Source: Candidatus Gastranaerophilales bacterium (lineage in GTDB: Bacteria > Cyanobacteriota > Vampirovibrionia > Gastranaerophilales > Gastranaerophilaceae). From it: a DNA stretch of 36,178 nucleotides. Below, one piece after another: positions 13,117 through 32,178 of the stretch. Position 1 is the first letter of the stretch. The number at the start of each line of letters is the position of its first letter. Position numbers and translations under genes: made by a program. The stretch lies in assembly GCA_944322865.1 (NCBI GenBank), contig CALUQJ010000011.1:1-36178 (forward strand), read 5' to 3'. A model generated the notes under the pieces. That model was not told where the DNA came from. It saw only the letters and a program-made list of their open reading frames with translations, and did no database searches.

Positions 13117-13452
13117 ATGAATACAGTTGTATTAGTCGGTCGTGTAGGCAGAGATGCAGAAATAAGATATTTTGAATCTGGCAAAGTTAAAGCAAACTTT
13201 TCTGTTGCAGTAAACCGCTGGGATGCAAAGACAAAATCAGAAGTTGCGGACTGGTTTAATATTGATGTTTGGGATAAACAGGCTGAATTTGCAGGAGAAT
13301 ACGTGAAAAAAGGTATTCTGGTAGCTGTAGATGGCAGAATTGATGTTAACAAATGGACTGATAAGGCAACCGGCGATGACCGCGAAAACTTCCTCGTTGT
13401 TGCAAATAATATCAGATTATTAAGTTCTAAAAGAGATGTTGAAGCAATATGA
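13117..13452 (+). CDS. ssb: Single-stranded DNA-binding protein, short form
   Basis: OB-fold SSB of 111 residues, beginning MNTVVLVGRVGRDAEIRY with the typical core NFSVAVNRWD and WFNIDVWDKQAE. SSB coats single-stranded DNA during replication and repair, normally as a tetramer. The protein ends KRDVEAI straight after the OB fold. It therefore lacks the glycine-rich linker and acidic C-terminal tip (DDDIPF-like) by which most bacterial SSBs recruit partners. AGAGG precedes the ATG. Its stop overlaps the start of the next gene by 4 bases (ATGA), so it is translationally coupled to a sugar-acid kinase, an unusual partner. A second, full-length SSB may exist elsewhere in the genome. Confidence 0.9.
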   Translation: MNTVVLVGRVGRDAEIRYFESGKVKANFSVAVNRWDAKTKSEVADWFNIDVWDKQAEFAGEYVKKGILVAVDGRIDVNKWTDKATGDDRENFLVVANNIRLLSSKRDVEAI

Positions 13453-23006: not shown

Positions 23007-23071
23007 TTAATACCGGCAAGGTTCATTTTTAAGTGTAAGATTAACATTTGTAAAGATTAGCCGACTGGATA

Positions 23072-23107
23072 TTGTATTCTTACTTTTTGTTTGCTACATT
23101 TGTAGCA
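23072..23107 (+). promoter_or_regulatory. Promoter with TACANNTGTA dyad (BlaI/CopY-like operator)
   Basis: TTGTAT (23072-23077), a 17-base spacer and TACATT (23095-23100) form a plausible core promoter. Over the -10 lies the perfect dyad TGCTACA-TT-TGTAGCA (23092-23107), containing TACATTTGTA. TACA/TGTA half-sites separated by two bases are the known layout for BlaI/MecI and CopY repressors. The same core occurs at 32162-32171. Confidence 0.55.
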
Positions 23108-23139
23108 GTAGTAGTTTATCAGGATGTTTCGGAGGGTCA

Positions 23140-24639
23140 ATGAGAATCACACCTATACAAAATTGTAACTATTTTACCAACACTTACAATGCTGGCAGCG
23201 TAAATTACAAACCAAAAGCAGTTTATTCATCTGATGTATTTATTTCTTCATCTGCACCTAAACAGAAGAACAATGTAAATTTCACAGGTAATATACACAA
23301 TCTTTTGTCAGTAATTCCTAAAAAAGTTCAGTTAGATGATAAAATAGCGGCACTGTTTGATGAATTTAAGAGAGGGGATGTTATAACAGTAGGAAAAGAC
23401 TTTAAGGAAACCCAAAAAGCTCTAAAAGATGCTATTGGTACAGTGGATCACATCATCAAACGTGTATTTTTTATAAAAGATAACGAAATTGACGGCAGCA
23501 TCGCATTCTTTAAAAATGCAACAGGAGAAAAAGAAGTTCTGAACCTCAATAAATTCGATCTGTTTTTAAGCAGTGAACAAGGTCAGGATGCCCTTAAACC
23601 TCAAACAAGTTTTTATATAATGCCGGGCGATATATTATATGTCGGGAAAAAAGGTATTATGATAAAGGATTCCGCATCACCGGATTTAGCATCTGAAAGA
23701 CATAAATTTTCAAAAGTCTTTGACTTTACAAATGATTCAATTGATATTATCAAACGCCAGAACCAAAAACAATTAGCAACACTTGTAAGAGAAGTCAAAA
23801 CGCAAAAACAGCCTATATCATTTGCGGATGTCGGCGGACAGGACAAAGTAATTGATGAACTTAAAAAAGGTATATTATATCCTATAAAATATCCTGAGGC
23901 ATTTGAAAATGTTTCAGTAAATCACGGTACGATTTTAACCGGTCCTCCGGGCACTGGTAAAACTCTTATTGCTGAAGCCCTTGCAAACGAATCTAATGCT
24001 TATTTTAAAAAACTTAACGGCTCAGAGTTAAAATCTAAATGGATCGGCGAATCCGAAAGCAATCTCAGAGATTTGTTTGCGGAGGCAGTGGAAAAACAGC
24101 CTAGTATAATTGTATTTGATGAATTTGATTCTGTTGCCAAGAAACGTGACAAAATAGATCATTACAGTGCTGAATTTGTAAACCAGCTTCTATCAATAAT
24201 GAGTGATATTGAGAAGAACGGAGATGATGTTTATATTCTGGCAACGACGAATAAAGTTGACATGCTTGATGAAGCAATCAGACGTTCAGGACGTTTCGGA
24301 AAGCATATTGAAGTAGGTCCGCCGGATTTAAACGGTACTAAGCAAATATTAGGAATACATTCTGCAAAGAAACCGTTAGATGAATCTGTTGATATTGAGC
24401 AACTTTCAGGCAAACTTCATAAAATAAAAGCTACAGGCGCAGATATTGCAAGAATTGTATCAGATGCTCACAGTAACGCTTATCAAAGGCTCGGTATCTT
24501 TGAAAAAATGGATAACGGTACTTTTACAAGAGCTGATATAGACCGCCTTAAAATAACACCGGAAGATTTTGATAAAGCAATAAATGATTTTGTTGCGGAA
24601 AGCAAAGTTGCAGAACGTAAAAAAATCGGGTTTAATTAA
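23140..24639 (+). CDS. Stand-alone AAA+ ATPase with lineage-specific N-terminal tag
   Basis: Protein of 499 residues. The N-terminal 50 residues are low-complexity and end in NVNFTGN (45-51), a tag I associate with Gastranaerophilales. Residues about 60-200 form a domain I do not recognise (RGDVITVGKDF ... MPGDILYVGKKGIMI). The AAA module begins near 225: Walker A GPPGTGKT (268-275), pore-loop KWIGESESN (300-308), Walker B IIVFDE (323-328), sensor 1 ATTN (368-371), arginine fingers in RRSGRFG, and a C-terminal lid helix. Sequence style is closest to FtsH/Vps4/p97-type classic AAA, but there is no protease domain and no membrane helix. It is probably a protein unfoldase or remodeller of unknown substrate. 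GGAGG lies just before the ATG. Confidence 0.87.
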   Translation: MRITPIQNCNYFTNTYNAGSVNYKPKAVYSSDVFISSSAPKQKNNVNFTGNIHNLLSVIPKKVQLDDKIAALFDEFKRGDVITVGKDFKETQKALKDAIGTVDHIIKRVFFIKDNEIDGSIAFFKNATGEKEVLNLNKFDLFLSSEQGQDALKPQTSFYIMPGDILYVGKKGIMIKDSASPDLASERHKFSKVFDFTNDSIDIIKRQNQKQLATLVREVKTQKQPISFADVGGQDKVIDELKKGILYPIKYPEAFENVSVNHGTILTGPPGTGKTLIAEALANESNAYFKKLNGSELKSKWIGESESNLRDLFAEAVEKQPSIIVFDEFDSVAKKRDKIDHYSAEFVNQLLSIMSDIEKNGDDVYILATTNKVDMLDEAIRRSGRFGKHIEVGPPDLNGTKQILGIHSAKKPLDESVDIEQLSGKLHKIKATGADIARIVSDAHSNAYQRLGIFEKMDNGTFTRADIDRLKITPEDFDKAINDFVAESKVAERKKIGFN

Positions 24640-24640
24640 A

Positions 24641-24675
24641 ATTAAAAAAAAGCTGCATATCTAATATGCAGCTTT
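24641..24675 (-). terminator. Intrinsic terminator, strongest for the minus strand
   Basis: AAAGCTGCATAT (24649-24660) and ATATGCAGCTTT (24664-24675) form a 12-base stem with a 3-base loop. On the minus strand the stem is followed by a run of T, ending the secreted-protein gene at 24723. The plus side lacks a T-run but may still help end the AAA+ transcript. Confidence 0.85.
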
Positions 24676-24722
24676 GTAAATAAAAAATAGTAAAAAGTCT
24701 TCAATATAAAAATCCAAATAAA

Positions 24723-25166
24723 TTAAAACTGAACCTCAAAATAGCTTTTTATACTTTCCGCAGAACATGGAGCAGGATCTTTCATTCTGCTACTGTTGTA
24801 TTTGCAGTAAGTTTCAACGAGAAGTTTGTAATGTTCAACTTGTTTTTTATCCAGTTCAATTACAAAATCTGTAGACAACTTAGGATAATTCCCAGTATAA
24901 TCTTTTTCCAAATTATTTACCATAGGGAAAAGTGCATCACGCGTTCTGATACGTTGATAATCGTAAGTTGCGCATTCATTGTTGAAAAAGTTAAGAAAAT
25001 TGTATTCGTATTTCAACCCTGTACGAACTCGCTGACACACATTGCTCACAACCGCACCACTTGCAGAAAGAGCCTTTCTTGATGCTGTCGCACTTTTAGC
25101 ATCAACTGCAAATACAGAAGATGTTAAAAGCAACATACTAAATAATAAACAAAAAACTTTTTTCAT
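24723..25166 (-). CDS. Small secreted protein of unknown function
   Basis: Protein of 147 residues with a clear Sec signal peptide (MKKVFCLLFSMLLLTSSVFA, cleavage after about residue 20). The mature part is about 127 residues with four cysteines (in VCQRV, NECAT, TYCKY and PCSAE), so two disulfides are possible outside the cytoplasm. No known domain is recognised. The start has no Shine-Dalgarno; AATGTAT occurs three times in the 25 bases before the ATG. It lies 43 bases after the permease gene on the same strand and is followed by a strong terminator. Confidence 0.75.
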   Translation of the reverse strand: MKKVFCLLFSMLLLTSSVFAVDAKSATASRKALSASGAVVSNVCQRVRTGLKYEYNFLNFFNNECATYDYQRIRTRDALFPMVNNLEKDYTGNYPKLSTDFVIELDKKQVEHYKLLVETYCKYNSSRMKDPAPCSAESIKSYFEVQF

Positions 25167-25209
25167 ACATTATACATTAGCATACATTACAATTTTTGGC
25201 AAGTATTTT

Positions 25210-26523
25210 TTAAAAAAGAACGACCGCAAGCAGAGCAAAAACGATTAGCGCAATATTGTAGTGTAAAAAAGTAGGTATACAGGTATCTTTAATATGGTCA
25301 TGCTGACCGTCTGCATTTAATCCGGCAGTTGGACCTAAAGTTGTATCAGAAGCAGGAGATCCAGCATCACCGAGAGCAGCGGCAGCAGCCATAACGATTA
25401 CGGTTGCAGGTACACTAAAACCGAGTTTTACACAAACAGGGACAAATAAAACAGCTAAGATTGGAATTGTACCGAAAGATGTTCCTATTCCTATTGTAAT
25501 AAAAAGTCCGATTAAAAGCATAAGTAGAGCCGCGATGATTTTATTACCCATCATAAGCGGAACAAATGCGTTTACAAGTTCCTCAATTCCACCGGTTGAA
25601 TTTAAAACCATTGCAAAGCCTGCCGCAACGAGCATGACAAAAGCTACATACCCCATAAGCCCGACACCTTCATTGATAACTTTATCCATTTTATCATGGT
25701 CAATAGCCTGTGCCCCGAATATCAAACAGAGTCCCACAAGTGCACCGAGCGGTAACGAGCCTGTCCACAACTGAACGCCTAGTGTCGCAAATGCCGCCAG
25801 CAGCGTTATATAATGATTTCTGTTAAAGCGTATAGAACGGCGTTCACAACCTTCTGTATTGATTTTTAAATCCTTATATTCGCGCGGCTTGCGGTAAGTA
25901 ATAAAAACAGCAACAACAAGCCCGACAACCATTGCAAGCCCGAGAAACCACGTATATTTCCAGATATCCAGCTTTGCAACAGTTACCCCGTTCATTGATA
26001 GATTATCTGCCAGAAGTCCCTGAAAAATCAATCCAAAACCCGCAGGTATTGCGATATAAGGCGCCTTCAACCCAAAAGCTAGTGCGCATGCTACTGCACG
26101 GCGGTCAATTTTCAGTTTGTTCATTACATGCAGCAGAGGAGGTATAATTATAGGTATAAATGCAATATGAACAGGGATTAAATTTTGTGACATAACTGCC
26201 ATAATCGTAATTATTCCGATAAGCAGAAGTGCATTACTCTTTATTAAAAGTGAAATTCTTTTAGAAAGCACAAAAGCAAGACCGGTATGTGTCATAGCCG
26301 CCGCAAAAGCCCCCAGTAAAATATAACTTAAGGCGGTTTCTGAATTTCCTCCCATGCCTGTAATAAATGTAGACATAATTTCACTAACAGGCATGCCGGC
26401 AATTAAGCCCGCAGCCACTGCTGAGATAAACAGCGAAAGAAGAACATTTATTCTACATAAGCATAAAATACAGAGCAATATGACTGAAATTAATATAGGG
26501 TTTGTTAAAATCTGCCAATCCAT
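25210..26523 (-). CDS. Na+/H+ antiporter-family permease (YuiF/COG2056 type)
   Basis: Inner-membrane transporter of 437 residues with about eleven hydrophobic segments. Family marks are the N-terminal LSYILLGAFAAAMTHTG region and the conserved C-terminal box GDAGSPASDTTLGPT followed by a histidine-rich DGQHDH. These fit COG2056, annotated as Na+/H+ antiporter family; a B. subtilis member (YuiF) has been linked to histidine uptake. An amino-acid permease is therefore as likely as a cation antiporter. It is divergent from the DUF2157 gene; the gap holds an imperfect dyad around AGAC (26549) and GTCT (26562). Only a weak purine-rich site precedes its ATG. Confidence 0.82.
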   Translation of the reverse strand: MDWQILTNPILISVILLCILCLCRINVLLSLFISAVAAGLIAGMPVSEIMSTFITGMGGNSETALSYILLGAFAAAMTHTGLAFVLSKRISLLIKSNALLLIGIITIMAVMSQNLIPVHIAFIPIIIPPLLHVMNKLKIDRRAVACALAFGLKAPYIAIPAGFGLIFQGLLADNLSMNGVTVAKLDIWKYTWFLGLAMVVGLVVAVFITYRKPREYKDLKINTEGCERRSIRFNRNHYITLLAAFATLGVQLWTGSLPLGALVGLCLIFGAQAIDHDKMDKVINEGVGLMGYVAFVMLVAAGFAMVLNSTGGIEELVNAFVPLMMGNKIIAALLMLLIGLFITIGIGTSFGTIPILAVLFVPVCVKLGFSVPATVIVMAAAAALGDAGSPASDTTLGPTAGLNADGQHDHIKDTCIPTFLHYNIALIVFALLAVVLF

Positions 26524-26580
26524 CTTTTCAACTTTCTCATAGAATATTAGACTTATCGGTCTTAATATATCATAAATATA

Positions 26581-26609
26581 TTTACAAATCCTGAATGATA
26601 TTTTATAAT
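26581..26609 (+). promoter_or_regulatory. Sigma-70-type promoter for the DUF2157 operon
   Basis: TTTACA (26581-26586), a 17-base spacer, TATAAT (26604-26609). It is one of the best consensus matches in the window and lies about 30 bases before the ribosome site of the gene at 26646. Confidence 0.7.
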
Positions 26610-26645
26610 TAATAAAAATTGCAGGTTGGTTTAGGAGTGTATCAC

Positions 26646-27794
26646 ATGAAACATATTGAACGCTGGCTTAAAAAAGGACTGATAGATGAAGATTTAGCCG
26701 AAAAATTAGAACACGAAATTGATGAAGTTAATAAGCAAAAGTTTAAATTAGCAATGCAAATTACACTTTACACAATAGGGGTAATCCTTCTCGGGACAAG
26801 CGTTATCACATTTATTTCGGCAAATGATTGGATATTGCAGCTACTTAGTGATATGTATTTTTTGAAAGTGCTGCTTCTGTTATTTGTGACGCTTGCCTTT
26901 TTTCTCGGCGGCAACTATCTTGCTTATGAGAAGAAAAATCTGCCGGGGCTTGGCAATGCATTAATATTTCTCTCAACAATTTTAATCGGCGCGAATTATG
27001 CACTTCTGACACAGATTTTTAATATTGACGCTGAAGCCCTTATGGTTTTAAGCCTCTGGTTTATCAGTATATTTCCGCTTGCTTTTATATACAAAAGCAA
27101 AGCTATTAACTGGCTTTCTATATTACTGTTTATTTGTGCTTTTTGTAGTTTTTATGAGTATCTGGATTATGACACAGGTTTAATCTGGACTTTATACATG
27201 CCGTTCATAATCGGAGCAATTCTATATACAGCAGGTAATCTTACTGATATAAAGGAAAAATACTCTGGTTTTGACCTGAGTTACAAACTTACTGCCTTAA
27301 TTCCTATGTATATAACATTTTTGATTTTAATATTTTCTGCTGAAGAGTCATATCATTCTAATGAAATAAGTTATATTCTTCCGCCTGTTGTGTTAATTGT
27401 GTTTAATATAGTTAACTATATTAAAGAAAAGAATAAAAATGATTTTTTGAAAGCAGAAACGGTATTTATCCTCGGGATTACAATATTTATGCTTGCACTG
27501 CTTTTAATGCCATATGTATCCCCTGCGGGCGTTTCAACAGCAGCGCATATTTTTATCATCTATTTAATCTGGGCAGGATTTAGTTTCGGATACAAGTACG
27601 AAAATGTATCTTTAATTAACATGATTAATTTCATGCTTATTATTTATGTTTTGGCGACATACTGTCGTTTTGGCTGGTCGTTTATGGATAAGACCTTATT
27701 TTTCTTTATCGGCGGTGTTGTCCTTATTGCAATGGGAGTTTTCCTTGAAAAATACAAACGGCTGGCGCTGAAAAAATCAGAGGAGGATGTTTAA
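26646..27794 (+). CDS. DUF2157 domain membrane protein
   Basis: Protein of 382 residues. A short N-terminal cytoplasmic helix region (MKHIERWLKKGLIDEDLAEK) typical of DUF2157 is followed by about ten membrane helices. The start is ATG 26646, with AGGAG at 26633-26637; an in-frame TTG at 26619 lacks a site. The stop overlaps the next start (TAATG), and that gene encodes a GDYXXLXY protein. DUF2157 and GDYXXLXY proteins are known to occur together in many bacteria without a defined function. Confidence 0.83.
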   Translation: MKHIERWLKKGLIDEDLAEKLEHEIDEVNKQKFKLAMQITLYTIGVILLGTSVITFISANDWILQLLSDMYFLKVLLLLFVTLAFFLGGNYLAYEKKNLPGLGNALIFLSTILIGANYALLTQIFNIDAEALMVLSLWFISIFPLAFIYKSKAINWLSILLFICAFCSFYEYLDYDTGLIWTLYMPFIIGAILYTAGNLTDIKEKYSGFDLSYKLTALIPMYITFLILIFSAEESYHSNEISYILPPVVLIVFNIVNYIKEKNKNDFLKAETVFILGITIFMLALLLMPYVSPAGVSTAAHIFIIYLIWAGFSFGYKYENVSLINMINFMLIIYVLATYCRFGWSFMDKTLFFFIGGVVLIAMGVFLEKYKRLALKKSEEDV

Positions 27795-28312
27795 TGAAAA
27801 AAACGGTATATGTTATTGCAGCTATTTGGACGCTTATAACACTTGGAATTTTTGTCTGTAATGAAATGCATCTTGCCAAAGGTGAAGAAGTTATTCTCAA
27901 AGTTATACCTTATGATCCACGTGATTTTTTACGCGGCAATTATCTTACTCTGAACTACGAAATAAATGATATTGAATTTCCAGGAACAGCAATTCAAAAT
28001 ATAAATTATGAAAAACCAATTTATGTCATTTTGAAAAAGAATGCTAAAGGTGTTGCCTCTGCGGTAGATATAACTTACTTAAAACCTGAAAACAAATTGT
28101 TCATAAAAGGACAGCTGGCTCATGTAAGACTTGACAGGGATAAAGAAAAAATTTTTTATAGAATCAAATATAACAATATAGATCGTTTTTATGTTAAAGA
28201 AGGAAATGCTAAAAAGCTTGAAAAATCGTTGCAGAAAAACGGAGGGTACGCCAAAATATATCTGACACGGAACGGCAATGCAAGAATTAAAGAAATAATA
28301 GAAAACAAATAA
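27794..28312 (+). CDS. GDYXXLXY domain protein
   Basis: Protein of 172 residues with one N-terminal membrane helix (about 5-21) and an extracytoplasmic domain. The motif PRDFLRGNYLTLNYEI corresponds to the family GDYxxLxY signature (here GNYLTLNY). It is translationally coupled to the DUF2157 gene through TAATG, so the two products probably form one membrane complex. Biochemical role is unknown. A terminator follows 3 bases after the stop. Confidence 0.85.
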   Translation: MKKTVYVIAAIWTLITLGIFVCNEMHLAKGEEVILKVIPYDPRDFLRGNYLTLNYEINDIEFPGTAIQNINYEKPIYVILKKNAKGVASAVDITYLKPENKLFIKGQLAHVRLDRDKEKIFYRIKYNNIDRFYVKEGNAKKLEKSLQKNGGYAKIYLTRNGNARIKEIIENK

Positions 28313-28315
28313 ATA

Positions 28316-28344
28316 AAAAAGACCTCATAAAAAGAGGTCTTTTT
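28316..28344. terminator. Bidirectional intrinsic terminator
   Basis: AAAAAGACCTC (28316-28326) pairs with GAGGTCTTTTT (28334-28344) around a 7-base loop, between the GDYXXLXY gene and the convergent phosphate transporter gene. Confidence 0.9.
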
Positions 28345-28345
28345 A

Positions 28346-29362
28346 TTATTTAAGTATAAAATGATAAATCGAATAATAAATAATTGAAGATAAAATCATA
28401 CATGCCGGTATTGTCAAAACCCAAGCTGTCACAATATTACCAACAATTCGCCACTTAACCGCATGTGCATGCAGAGTTGAGCCAACCCCCATAATGGCGG
28501 TTGAGATTACGTGTGTTGTGCTCAACGGAATACCAAAATGAGAAGCCGTTAAAATTAATGTTGCGGCGGAAGTTTCTGCCGCAAACCCGTGTATAGGTTT
28601 AAGACGGATAATTTTGTGTCCCATAGTTTTGATAATTTTCCAGCCGCCGTTCATTGTGCCGGCTGCCATTGTGAGTGCACAAATAATAATTACATAAATC
28701 GGAATATCAAAATCGCCGCCCGGACTTTTATGCAAAACACCGCCGGCTAATAGTGCAAGTGTAATTATCCCCATTGTTTTTTGTGCATCATTTGAACCAT
28801 GGCTTATTGCCATTAAACCGGATGATATTAACTGAAGCTTTCTGAAACGTTTGTTAACTTTTTGCGGATTTGCACGATAAAAAATCAAAACAAGCAAGAG
28901 CATAAAGCTAAAACCTACTACAAAACCGAGTACCGGAGATGTAAACATAGGAATTATAACCTTTTCCATTAATGTCTTAACATGCACAACATCAGGTCCG
29001 GCTTTGACAATTGCCGCTCCGAGAAGTCCGCCGATAAGAGCATGCGATGAGCTTGACGGTAATCCTAAATACCAGGTTAATAAATTCCATAAAACTGCCG
29101 CCAGCAATGCACAAAAAATTACGGTTAAGGTAATTAATTCTGCATTAACAATCCCTGAACCAATAGTTTTGGCAACGTGAGTTCCTGTTAAGGCTCCGAC
29201 AAATTCCAGACTTGCACCAAAAAGTACAGCCTGTTTAGGAGAAAGTACCTTGGTTGATACAACTGTTGCTATTGCGTTTGCACAGTCATGGAAACCGTTT
29301 ATAAATTCAAATGCAAGAGCAACTGCAACTACTGCTATTAATATCAATATTGTAATCGACAT
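28346..29362 (-). CDS. pit: PiT-family inorganic phosphate transporter
   Basis: Low-affinity phosphate/cation symporter of 338 residues in the inner membrane. Both PHO4 signatures are present: NGFHDCANAIATVVSTK near the N-terminus and SHGSNDAQKTMGI in the middle. About ten membrane helices are visible, with the usual inverted-repeat look (GLPSSSSHALIGG and GIPLSTTHVISTA). It follows a DUF47 gene by 9 bases, the standard bacterial PhoU-like/Pit pairing. The length is typical of the short bacterial PiT group. Confidence 0.93.
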   Translation of the reverse strand: MSITILILIAVVAVALAFEFINGFHDCANAIATVVSTKVLSPKQAVLFGASLEFVGALTGTHVAKTIGSGIVNAELITLTVIFCALLAAVLWNLLTWYLGLPSSSSHALIGGLLGAAIVKAGPDVVHVKTLMEKVIIPMFTSPVLGFVVGFSFMLLLVLIFYRANPQKVNKRFRKLQLISSGLMAISHGSNDAQKTMGIITLALLAGGVLHKSPGGDFDIPIYVIIICALTMAAGTMNGGWKIIKTMGHKIIRLKPIHGFAAETSAATLILTASHFGIPLSTTHVISTAIMGVGSTLHAHAVKWRIVGNIVTAWVLTIPACMILSSIIYYSIYHFILK

Positions 29363-29371
29363 AAAATACTC

Positions 29372-30013
29372 CTAACTCTGTTTCAATACAACATTTAAAA
29401 TTGCGTCTGATACATTGAAACAAGCATCAAGAGCGTTTTCTATTTCTTTATACATATCTCTGAGTTTAATAACCGTTAAGGCATCGTATTTGCCGGAAAA
29501 AAGGTCACTCATAGCTTTATAGTGTACTTCATCACCGTGAGATTCTAATTCTTTCATTGCAATGTTTGCCTTTGTAATATCCTCAACATCACTTACTTTT
29601 TTGAATTTGGAAAGAATTATAGCAAGCTGCTCGGTTGCCTTAACCAAAGTTAAAGCTTGTTCTTTCATTTCTTCGGTATATTTAGATAATCTGTATACCT
29701 CTAAATTTAAACAAGCTTTAATAACTCTTTTATTTATTTTTCTTAATTGTACTGCAATGTATTGTATATCTTCACGTTCAAGCGGGGTAATAAAACTTTT
29801 ATTCAGCTGCTTTAAAGTAAGTTTAAAAGAAAGTTTACTTTTTTTCTTATTTTTGAATGCGGCTTCCTTTCTGTCCGGAGTTAAACCGTTTACAAGAATT
29901 TCGTCATACAAAGCAGCAGACTTTTTACATATCTCCGCGCTATCCTGAAACAAAGTGAAAAACATTTTGTCTTCAGGCGGCATAATATATGACATTAGAT
30001 TAAATTTTGACAT
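29372..30013 (-). CDS. DUF47 (PhoU-like) partner of the phosphate transporter
   Basis: All-helical cytoplasmic protein of 213 residues in the DUF47/TIGR00153 family, related in fold to PhoU. The pattern MPPEDKMFFTLFQDSAEICKK and a late ELESHGDEVHYKAM (metal-binding type acidic/histidine segment) fit. The likely start is ATG 30013 (MSKFN), because GGAGG at 30023-30019 lies 5 bases before it; the upstream ATG at 30025 overlaps this site. It heads the DUF47-pit operon and probably regulates or assists phosphate uptake. Confidence 0.9.
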   Translation of the reverse strand: MSKFNLMSYIMPPEDKMFFTLFQDSAEICKKSAALYDEILVNGLTPDRKEAAFKNKKKSKLSFKLTLKQLNKSFITPLEREDIQYIAVQLRKINKRVIKACLNLEVYRLSKYTEEMKEQALTLVKATEQLAIILSKFKKVSDVEDITKANIAMKELESHGDEVHYKAMSDLFSGKYDALTVIKLRDMYKEIENALDACFNVSDAILNVVLKQS

Positions 30014-30124
30014 ATTGACCTCCATTATTCACACATCACAAGTCTAGCAAAAAAATATCTGTTTGTATTTATTCTGTTCACAAATTTTAATATTTATACT
30101 ATTATTTAACAGGAGGTTTTTAAA

Positions 30125-31135
30125 TTGAGCGAATTATATGTGAAATTCCGCGGGTGCTGCGCACGAACCAGTAAATATTTATTTAGCCGGCTAACCAGAG
30201 ATAAACTGAGATTTAAATGGAATTACATTGAAGAATACGGGCTTGTTAATTTTTTAAGCTACACAGCCAAATGTTATCTAAACAATTTACTGCCTCCAAA
30301 TTATAAAATAAACCTTGCAATAACAGCTATTGCAAAAAATGAGGCGTCATATATAAGAGAATGGATTGAATTTCACAGACTTGTCGGTGTCGAGAAATTT
30401 TTCATATACGATAACGAAAGCACTGATAACTTGAAAGAAATATTACAGCCTTATATAGATTCAGAAATTGTAGAATATATTTGTTTTCCGGGAAAATGCA
30501 GGCAATTTGCCGCATACAGAAACTCTATTAGGCGTAACGCTAACAAAGTTAAATATATGGCTTTCATTGATTGCGATGAATTTATTACACCAATCAAGCA
30601 TAATACTATTCCAGAATTTATTGAATATTTAGAAAAGAAAATTAATCATAAAATTGATGCTCTCGGCATTAATTGGATTATGCACGGATATAACGGACAT
30701 TATGAAAAACAAGAAGGACTTGTTTGTGAAAATTATTCTAAATGCGATTTAAATACAGGCGCAAATCAGCATATAAAATCAATTGTCAGATTGAGAAGCG
30801 TAATAAGCAATAACCATCCGCATTTCTGCATACACAAATTGTTTTCAAAAATAGTTAACGCTAATGGTGAAGAGATGTATGGACCTTTTACTGAACCACA
30901 TCTTGATGAGATAGTAATACATCACTATTATACAAAATCTTATACCGAAACAAAAAATAAAATACAAAAAGGATTTGCTGATCAAACGAATAAACGACCA
31001 ATCAGTGCATTTATGCCTCCGGCAAAAGAACAGCCGAAAAAACTGGAATTTGTCCCTGATTTTTTATCTGTTGATGAGGATCATTCCATGGATAGATTTA
31101 TTCCGTTATTGAAAGAAAAGTTAGGAATTAATTAA
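30125..31135 (+). CDS. Glycosyltransferase (GT92/GT2-like, DxD type)
   Basis: Protein of 336 residues. The GT-A fold is seen from about 62: NLAITAIAKNEASYIREW, IYDNESTDN, then the metal/nucleotide-sugar motif AFIDCDEF (147-153) and a late HHYYTKSY. The pattern is that of the GT92 (DUF23)/glycosyltransferase family 2 group that adds sugars to surface glycans. The N-terminal 55 residues are basic with a mildly hydrophobic stretch and could contact the membrane. The start is TTG 30125, fixed by AGGAGG at 30111-30116, 8 bases upstream; no ATG fits. No other glycan genes are close. Its end overlaps the convergent gene by 8 bases. Confidence 0.83.
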   Translation: MSELYVKFRGCCARTSKYLFSRLTRDKLRFKWNYIEEYGLVNFLSYTAKCYLNNLLPPNYKINLAITAIAKNEASYIREWIEFHRLVGVEKFFIYDNESTDNLKEILQPYIDSEIVEYICFPGKCRQFAAYRNSIRRNANKVKYMAFIDCDEFITPIKHNTIPEFIEYLEKKINHKIDALGINWIMHGYNGHYEKQEGLVCENYSKCDLNTGANQHIKSIVRLRSVISNNHPHFCIHKLFSKIVNANGEEMYGPFTEPHLDEIVIHHYYTKSYTETKNKIQKGFADQTNKRPISAFMPPAKEQPKKLEFVPDFLSVDEDHSMDRFIPLLKEKLGIN

Positions 31136-31571
31136 ATACATTGACTACAGATAAGAGTACTTTTAAATCTTTATCCAGCAATTTGTATTCTTCGTCCGGT
31201 ACAACAATACGCTCACTCTCAAATTCTTGCAAAAATTCCCCCTTCATACTCTCTTCATCTGGATAACTTGCAACAAACATATAGAAATCTTTAAGCTGTT
31301 TTATATATTTTTGATTAATTTCTTTATTCTGAACACCTGTGCCGCTATATTTATTTTCCAAAGCAACGATTTGTGAATAAACTGTCTGCCCTTTGTTCAA
31401 TTTAGCGCTTATGTAATCCATTTTCAATGATGCGTGGTGTCTGGAAAGACGCCCAATAGGACTATTTACAACCCCGCGGATAAGATTTTCATCCTCCTGC
31501 TGCAAATTATTTGCCCCAAAAGCAACAACAGGAACTATTAACAACATTAATACAATTATAATTTTTTTCAT
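31128..31571 (-). CDS. Small secreted protein of unknown function
   Basis: Protein of 147 residues with a Sec signal peptide (MKKIIIVLMLLIVPVVAFGA, cleavage near residue 20). The mature part is helical and charged, with no cysteines and no recognised domain. It contains SPIGRLSRHHASLKMDY and a C-terminal acidic stretch. AGAGGG precedes the ATG. It lies 29 bases after the DUF2023 gene on the same strand, so co-transcription is possible. The end overlaps the glycosyltransferase by 8 bases. Confidence 0.75.
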   Translation of the reverse strand: MKKIIIVLMLLIVPVVAFGANNLQQEDENLIRGVVNSPIGRLSRHHASLKMDYISAKLNKGQTVYSQIVALENKYSGTGVQNKEINQKYIKQLKDFYMFVASYPDEESMKGEFLQEFESERIVVPDEEYKLLDKDLKVLLSVVNVFN

Positions 31572-31600
31572 AAAACCCTCTTTTATTGCTTAATATTAAA

Positions 31601-32059
31601 TTATTTACTGTGCAATTTTATAATATTATTTTTTATATTTAAATACCTTTCGCACTGTTTTACACGATCATATCCAAGCATAATACCCAGAATAAAATCC
31701 TGTTCAGCCGTAAGTTCATTAAGTTTTGGATTAAGAGTTCTGACAACATCAACGCACTGCGGAGCCCCAAAGTATACATTTATTTTGTTTTTACCGATAT
31801 CGTGTATCACATATGCTATATTTTCATTTTGCAGCCGTTCTTCTATCGGTTTACGGTACACAGCCTTTTCGGTTGTCAAAATAAGATTTCTAATCCCTTT
31901 TTTAAATTCATATATATGGTGATGGAAAACTCTTAAATCTGCATATTCTTTTTGTTTCGCATCTGTAATTTTAGGGGATTGAGCATTAAATGCAGGTTTA
32001 ATTGTGTTTTTATTCCTATTTAAAGGTGAGTAGTAAGGTATGATTGAATTAACAAACAT
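31601..32059 (-). CDS. DUF2023 family protein with lineage tag
   Basis: Protein of 152 residues. The C-terminal 110 residues match the DUF2023 pattern as I remember it: FHHHIYEFKKGIRNL (45-59), NKINVYFGAPQCVDVVR and QDFILGIMLGYDRVKQCERY. DUF2023 is a small cytosolic family of unknown function; I recall members beside flavodoxin genes. The first 44 residues are an extra, low-complexity leader with PAFNAQSP (22-29), similar in style to the NVNFTG tag on the AAA+ protein at 23140. AAAGGAG lies 5 bases before the ATG. It is divergent from the secreted-protein gene at 32211. Confidence 0.82.
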   Translation of the reverse strand: MFVNSIIPYYSPLNRNKNTIKPAFNAQSPKITDAKQKEYADLRVFHHHIYEFKKGIRNLILTTEKAVYRKPIEERLQNENIAYVIHDIGKNKINVYFGAPQCVDVVRTLNPKLNELTAEQDFILGIMLGYDRVKQCERYLNIKNNIIKLHSK

Positions 32060-32149
32060 ATGGACTCCTTTATTAGACTAAACTAACTTTAGAATACCTT
32101 ATATTTTTCTTTTGTCAAGTTTACAAAAGTTAAGAAAAAGGTTTTGCTA

Positions 32150-32178
32150 TTGACAAAATACTACAAATGTAATATGAT
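32150..32178 (+). promoter_or_regulatory. Strong promoter with TACANNTGTA dyad in the spacer
   Basis: TTGACA (32150-32155), a 17-base spacer, TATGAT (32173-32178). The spacer contains TACAAATGTA (32162-32171), flanked by ATA and TAT that extend the dyad (ATA-n-TACAAATGTA-n-TAT). A repressor bound here would block RNA polymerase directly. The core is the reverse complement of the one at 23095-23104. Confidence 0.65.

Follow-up and report, generated by a model that had tools for sequence, protein, structure and literature searches.

Introduction

BlaI-family proteins are repressors best known for their part in resistance to antibiotics and copper. BlaI and MecI recognise TACA/TGTA half-sites, the same as those in the dyads described below, and the CopY operator is RNYKACANNYGTMRNY, of which the bare 10-mer is necessary and not sufficient, as set out in the available portion of O'Brien et al. 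(PMC7253601). Clostridium thermocellum has small BlaI regulons with autoregulation (PMC8457756), and the mycobacterial BlaI (Rv1846c) has been studied for effects beyond beta-lactamase, on cell division and growth (PMC12565901, PMC8265638), as far as the available portions of these sources go. In the open-licence literature, we found none on a BlaI-type regulon in Gastranaerophilales, Vampirovibrio or Melainabacteria, and nothing relevant (titles and abstract starts) linking the BlaI family with a diguanylate cyclase.

Here, we describe two such dyads in the window (the whole 36,178-nt stretch of DNA that was analysed, from a gut bacterium with cyanobacterial relatives; coordinates in Table 1), their conservation, their positional recurrence in related genomes and their co-occurrence with a repressor gene. 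In our reading, to which we give a probability of about 0.78, both dyads would be operators of a single BlaI/MecI/CopY-family repressor that would also regulate itself together with a small regulon. The outcome is a candidate operator, a candidate regulator and a list of candidate targets that includes a diguanylate cyclase, together with a candidate new signalling partner for this repressor family.

Table 1. Coordinates of the genes, proposed promoters and predicted operators in the window
Feature	Position	Strand	Description
29-nt block upstream of AAA+ promoter	23031..23059	.	invariant in 6/6 genus genomes
Proposed AAA+ promoter	23072..23100	+	TTGTAT (23072-23077), 17 nt, TACATT (23095-23100), TG before -10
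Operator 1 (predicted), TGCTACATTTGTAGCA	23092..23107	.	12/14 to TACTACANNTGTAGTA; core TACATTTGTA at 23095-23104
AAA+ ATPase gene, 499 aa	23140..24639	+	CDC48/PAN/FtsH-like AAA domain; PF00004 E 4e-40
Secreted-protein promoter	32150..32178	+	TTGACA-17-TATGAT; scan 11/12; operator in spacer
Operator 2 (predicted), TACTACAAATGTAATA	32159..32174	.	13/14; core TACAAATGTA at 32162-32171
Small protein gene, 153 aa	32211..32672	+	signal-peptide-like start, lysine-rich end

Results

The window sequence has both dyads at the positions given in the first-pass annotation, TGCTACATTTGTAGCA before the AAA+ gene and TACAAATGTA before the secreted-protein gene. The accompanying statement that the window holds no third intergenic copy is borne out, since the third exact copy of TACANNTGTA (13122-13131) is coding, being part of the first codons in an ssb-like ORF (13117-13452). 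These three copies compare with 0.67 expected, and at least three are reached in 6 of 100 shuffles, so that the 10-mer by itself is not significant in the window. Across the genome (G000) it is mildly enriched only, with 60 sites vs 29 for the backward-read control pattern. Among the 54 of these 60 sites that were read, 51 are outside the window, of which the script's rule places 41 in ORFs (a count that includes the site before aroH, re-judged as promoter-placed), and the bare 10-mer was therefore dropped as a regulon finder. The full 16-mer TACTACA-NN-TGTAGTA is specific, and only with this larger context do the sites separate from chance. Elsewhere in the same genome, CTACTATTGTAG recurs 8 times at a spacing of 63-65 nt (G000:C16:29834-30290), like a CRISPR repeat array.

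A BlaI/CopY homolog was looked for, and G000 carries a single BlaI-family (PF03965) gene (G000:C1:56061-56402; 114 aa, E 1e-16), whose Penicillinase_R domain scores 61.4 bits vs a curated cut-off of 22.6 and whose winged helix is alignable with solved BlaI/MecI structures (E 1.5e-5 to 1sd4). A profile built from the six genus copies (E<=1e-10) finds one copy in 98 of the 117 family genomes, hereafter BlaI+. The repressor loci compared here are the 31 closest of these copies, and the recognition-helix stretch AYTTIKTVMDRLT is present in 31/31. The half-dyad TTACANNNNTAG is found in the repressor promoter in 25/26 loci, plus 6/6 genus loci, and GTTACATTTATAGTA is invariant in these six, at the extended -10 of the gene's own promoter. 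The same site had been expected before the repressor gene; what is found is this related half-dyad, but with a match to the 16-mer of only 10-11/14, and autoregulation is for that reason likely but unproven.

Within about 1.5 kb of the repressor gene, the 31 loci have homologs of the G000 neighbours UP384, DN130 and, mostly, DN345, none of which has a Pfam family over cut-off in G000. A UP384 homolog precedes the gene in 29/31 loci, and directly 3' of it in 31/31 is a gene for a conserved 120-132-aa protein (G000 copy DN130, L016:1839-2228, G000:C1). The predicted structure of DN130 is all-helical, with seven helices and a mean pLDDT of 82. Foldseek gave no match to this structure at E<=0.001, the best VIA-align Z (6.3) is within the chance range for helical bundles, a PDB sequence search returned nothing below E 0.45, and Pfam returned weak scattered matches only (best E 0.005, none over cut-off). 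Among the proteins considered, this one is the best candidate for a partner of the repressor.

The AAA+ protein has the CDC48 family as its best NCBIfam match, below cut-off, and the named near-relatives of its gene are mostly from Candidatus Gastranaerophilales MAGs (7/8 loci). The exact 10-mer TACANNTGTA stands before the gene in all six orthologs of the genus, with differing centres (TT, AG, AG, GT, AA and AA) and with flanks that tend to CTACA..TGTAGTA. TTG is kept 17 nt 5' of TACA in the same 6/6 orthologs, which is the ground for the AAA+ promoter proposed in Table 1; TTGTAT-17-TACATT matches at only 8/12 and is not listed by the promoter scan. Conservation of the dyad upstream of orthologs also holds in a family comparison of 31 AAA+ loci (not counting the weaker AAA+ matches of another 12 genomes), where the 16-mer TACTACANNTGTAGTA occurs at >=12/14 within 400 nt in 16/21 BlaI+ vs 1/10 BlaI- loci (one-sided Fisher 8e-4) and the exact 10-mer within 160 nt in 13/21 and 0/10, respectively. 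Permuted palindromes reach 0.08 on average and 6 at most among the BlaI+ loci. In other genera the site stands about 100-320 nt 5' of the gene. The site before the AAA+ gene is very probably an operator of the BlaI-family repressor.

The invariant 29-nt block upstream of this promoter is a possible second regulatory site. With up to 3 mismatches allowed it occurs once in each of the six genomes and therefore marks no wider regulon, and it was rejected as an element of one; L060 and L061 have degenerate forms of it. In another Gastranaerophilales genome, a perfect 20-bp palindrome, CCTGCTACAATTGTAGCAGG (L058:2443-2462), is located at the AAA+ promoter.

The secreted protein matched no Pfam or NCBIfam family, and its gene was found in 4/6 genus genomes. 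TTGACA and TATGAT flanking the second dyad are confirmed by the promoter scan. Conservation here does not extend to the exact 10-mer, present in only 1/4 orthologs; the larger dyad, in degenerate form, is kept in three of the four, as TACTACAAATGTAATA in G000, TACTACAGACGTAATA in G005 (12/14) and TACTACAGGTATAGTA in G002 (13/14), with no match in G004. This site is probably an operator of the BlaI-family repressor. A DUF2023 gene (31604-32059) is divergent from the secreted-protein gene, and the gap between the two contains a TTGACA-16-TATTCT promoter-like site.

At one mismatch or fewer, the 16-mer has 128 sites in the 117 family genomes. Just four gene families account for 30 of the 50 sites read: a GGDEF diguanylate cyclase (12 sites upstream of it), an HNH-nuclease-like gene (9, upstream or at its start), a Ycf45/SpoIIIAA-like ATPase (5 upstream) and the AAA+ gene (4 upstream, a fifth AAA protein, L139, showing only a weak relationship). 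Other positions, partly within coding sequence, make up the remainder. The three read sites from BlaI- genomes (L118, L119, L126) are not before any of the four families. For the third family the search match names SpoIIIAA, and we take the gene to be Ycf45-like. Sites at >=12/14 in G000 stand before the Ycf45-like gene, the GGDEF gene, aroH, the AAA+ gene and the secreted-protein gene, all promoter-placed (3 of the 51 read outside the window and the two in it), and a site at 11/14 is before RNase Y.

The Ycf45-like gene was compared over 110 upstream regions, 30 of them from search loci and 80 fetched, in which the sites cluster near -140. They are found at >=11/14 in 56/92 BlaI+ vs 2/18 BlaI- regions (one-sided Fisher 9e-5), at >=12/14 in 38/92 vs 2/18 (0.011) and at >=13/14 in 14/92 vs 1/18 (0.25), Fisher values that here and above overstate the case because the loci are related by descent. 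As controls, 209 permuted palindromes at >=12/14 reach a mean of 0.2 and a maximum of 3 in the 92 BlaI+ regions, and permuted 16-mers at >=13/14 a mean of 0.01 of them. Counted by genus, a site at >=12/14 is present in 16/32 BlaI+ and 2/9 BlaI- genera. The predicted regulon is therefore wider than the two genes first proposed.

The association between the BlaI-type gene and the dyad rests on few independent losses. On the AAA+ tree, the BlaI state changes 4 times, 3 independent BlaI+/BlaI- pairs fall on starred branches, and the site tracks BlaI in about 2.5 of the 3, which is below significance because the independent losses are too few. Genome-wide, the 16-mer shows only a modest excess over its backward control in the 98 BlaI+ genomes (121 vs 95), with 7 vs 10 in the 19 BlaI- genomes. 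G079 has no BlaI match (E<=1e-10), yet it has 12/14 before the AAA+ gene and 13/14 before the Ycf45-like gene; it belongs to a mostly BlaI+ genus, and a recent loss or an assembly gap may account for the missing gene. G032 (84% complete), also without a BlaI match, keeps one site at 12/14.

Discussion

From these comparisons we infer binding, repression, autoregulation and a partner role for the 120-132-aa protein. The repressor would bind the 16-mer as a winged-helix dimer, one half-site per monomer, and when bound would cover the -10 or the spacer and so block RNA polymerase. Its targets would be its own gene, the AAA+ ATPase, the secreted protein, the diguanylate cyclase and the Ycf45/SpoIIIAA-like ATPase, probably also RNase Y and aroH, and in other genera the HNH-nuclease-like gene, while the protein encoded directly behind it may be its partner in signal response. 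The first-pass idea of one BlaI/CopY-type regulon with both window genes is, judged by sequence, largely supported, through the repressor gene, the half-dyad of its own promoter and the AAA+ conservation; the secreted-protein site, kept in only 3/4 orthologs and degenerate, is the less secure part. A further and tentative reading, which we would not bet on at even odds, is of a rewired BlaI-type system without BlaR1, in which the repressor and a new all-helical operon partner would link c-di-GMP synthesis, the Ycf45/SpoIIIAA-like ATPase, the HNH nuclease and the CDC48-like AAA+ remodeller in one family-wide response of gut Gastranaerophilales.

Both dyads might instead be products of chance or promoter composition, AT-rich -10-like words (TACAAT/TATAAT) occurring with their reverse. 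This would suit a 10-mer whose count in the window falls short of significance and whose genomic sites are mostly coding (41/51 by the script's rule), but it is very improbable for a AAA+ dyad that is kept in 6/6 orthologs while its centre varies, for a site that in other genera stands about 100-320 nt upstream and that recurs at four gene families, and in view of the permuted-palindrome control at the Ycf45-like and AAA+ loci. Chance could also be confined to the secreted-protein dyad, as a match within a promoter spacer, with the AAA+ site a true operator and the window genes sharing no regulon. That the exact 10-mer is in one of four orthologs, that G004 has no match and that the gene is absent in 2/6 genus genomes all lean this way; we nevertheless consider it unlikely, since the 16-mer matches at 13/14 in G000, 12/14 in G005 and 13/14 in G002, and 13/14 is a level that permuted 16-mers reach, on average, in 0.01 of 92 upstream regions.

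The dyads could finally be operators of another regulator, its family unspecified, co-inherited with the BlaI-type gene, whose product would then have other targets. G079 and G032, which keep sites without a BlaI match, and the poor fit of the BlaI-type gene's own site speak for such a regulator, which we regard as improbable because the motif has the layout known for the BlaI/MecI/CopY family (available portion of PMC7253601), the recognition-helix stretch is invariant in 31/31 loci and sites are rare where the BlaI-type gene is missing. A single BlaI-family repressor acting on both window genes thus remains our preferred reading.

As the trigger of this repressor, envelope stress, an antibiotic or a metal had been suggested, and this suggestion found no support. 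No BlaR1/MecR1-like gene was recognised beside the repressor gene (within about 1.5 kb, 31 loci), the C-terminal CXC metal motif of CopY is in 0/31 repressors, and neither a beta-lactamase nor a copper pump gene was recognised among the targets seen; no beta-lactamase/PBP target was recognised among the sites read (54/60 own-genome 10-mer sites, flanking genes partly named). A copper signal was rejected because the CXC motif is missing, and a beta-lactam signal is unsupported, no linked BlaR1 having been recognised in the 31 loci. As a CopY_TcrY equivalog, the repressor scores 39.5 bits vs a cut-off of 121.95. By alignment, the Asn position of what we take to be the Asn-Phe processing site of BlaI/MecI is His in the G000 repressor.

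The repressor is alignable over nearly the whole protein with Staphylococcus BlaI/MecI (PDB 1sd4, 1sd6, 1okr), but here no BlaR1/MecR1-like neighbour was recognised, no beta-lactamase target was seen, and the predicted targets encode c-di-GMP, ATPase and nuclease functions. It shares with the CopR/CopY copper repressors the PF03965 family, a 16-base dyad layout and a 10-mer that is insufficient in both (available portion of PMC7253601), whereas the Gastranaerophilales repressors are without the CXC metal motif (31/31) and a copper-export gene was not recognised among the targets seen. C. thermocellum BlaI resembles the system predicted here in its few target operons, its inverted repeats and, probably, its autoregulation, but there the repeats are GTCTAT/GACTAT with a linked BlaR1, as opposed to TACTACA dyads without one (available portion of PMC8457756). 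Like the mycobacterial BlaI (Rv1846c), which the available portions of PMC12565901 and PMC8265638 describe in another lineage, the repressor presented here would be a BlaI-family protein with roles beyond beta-lactamase.
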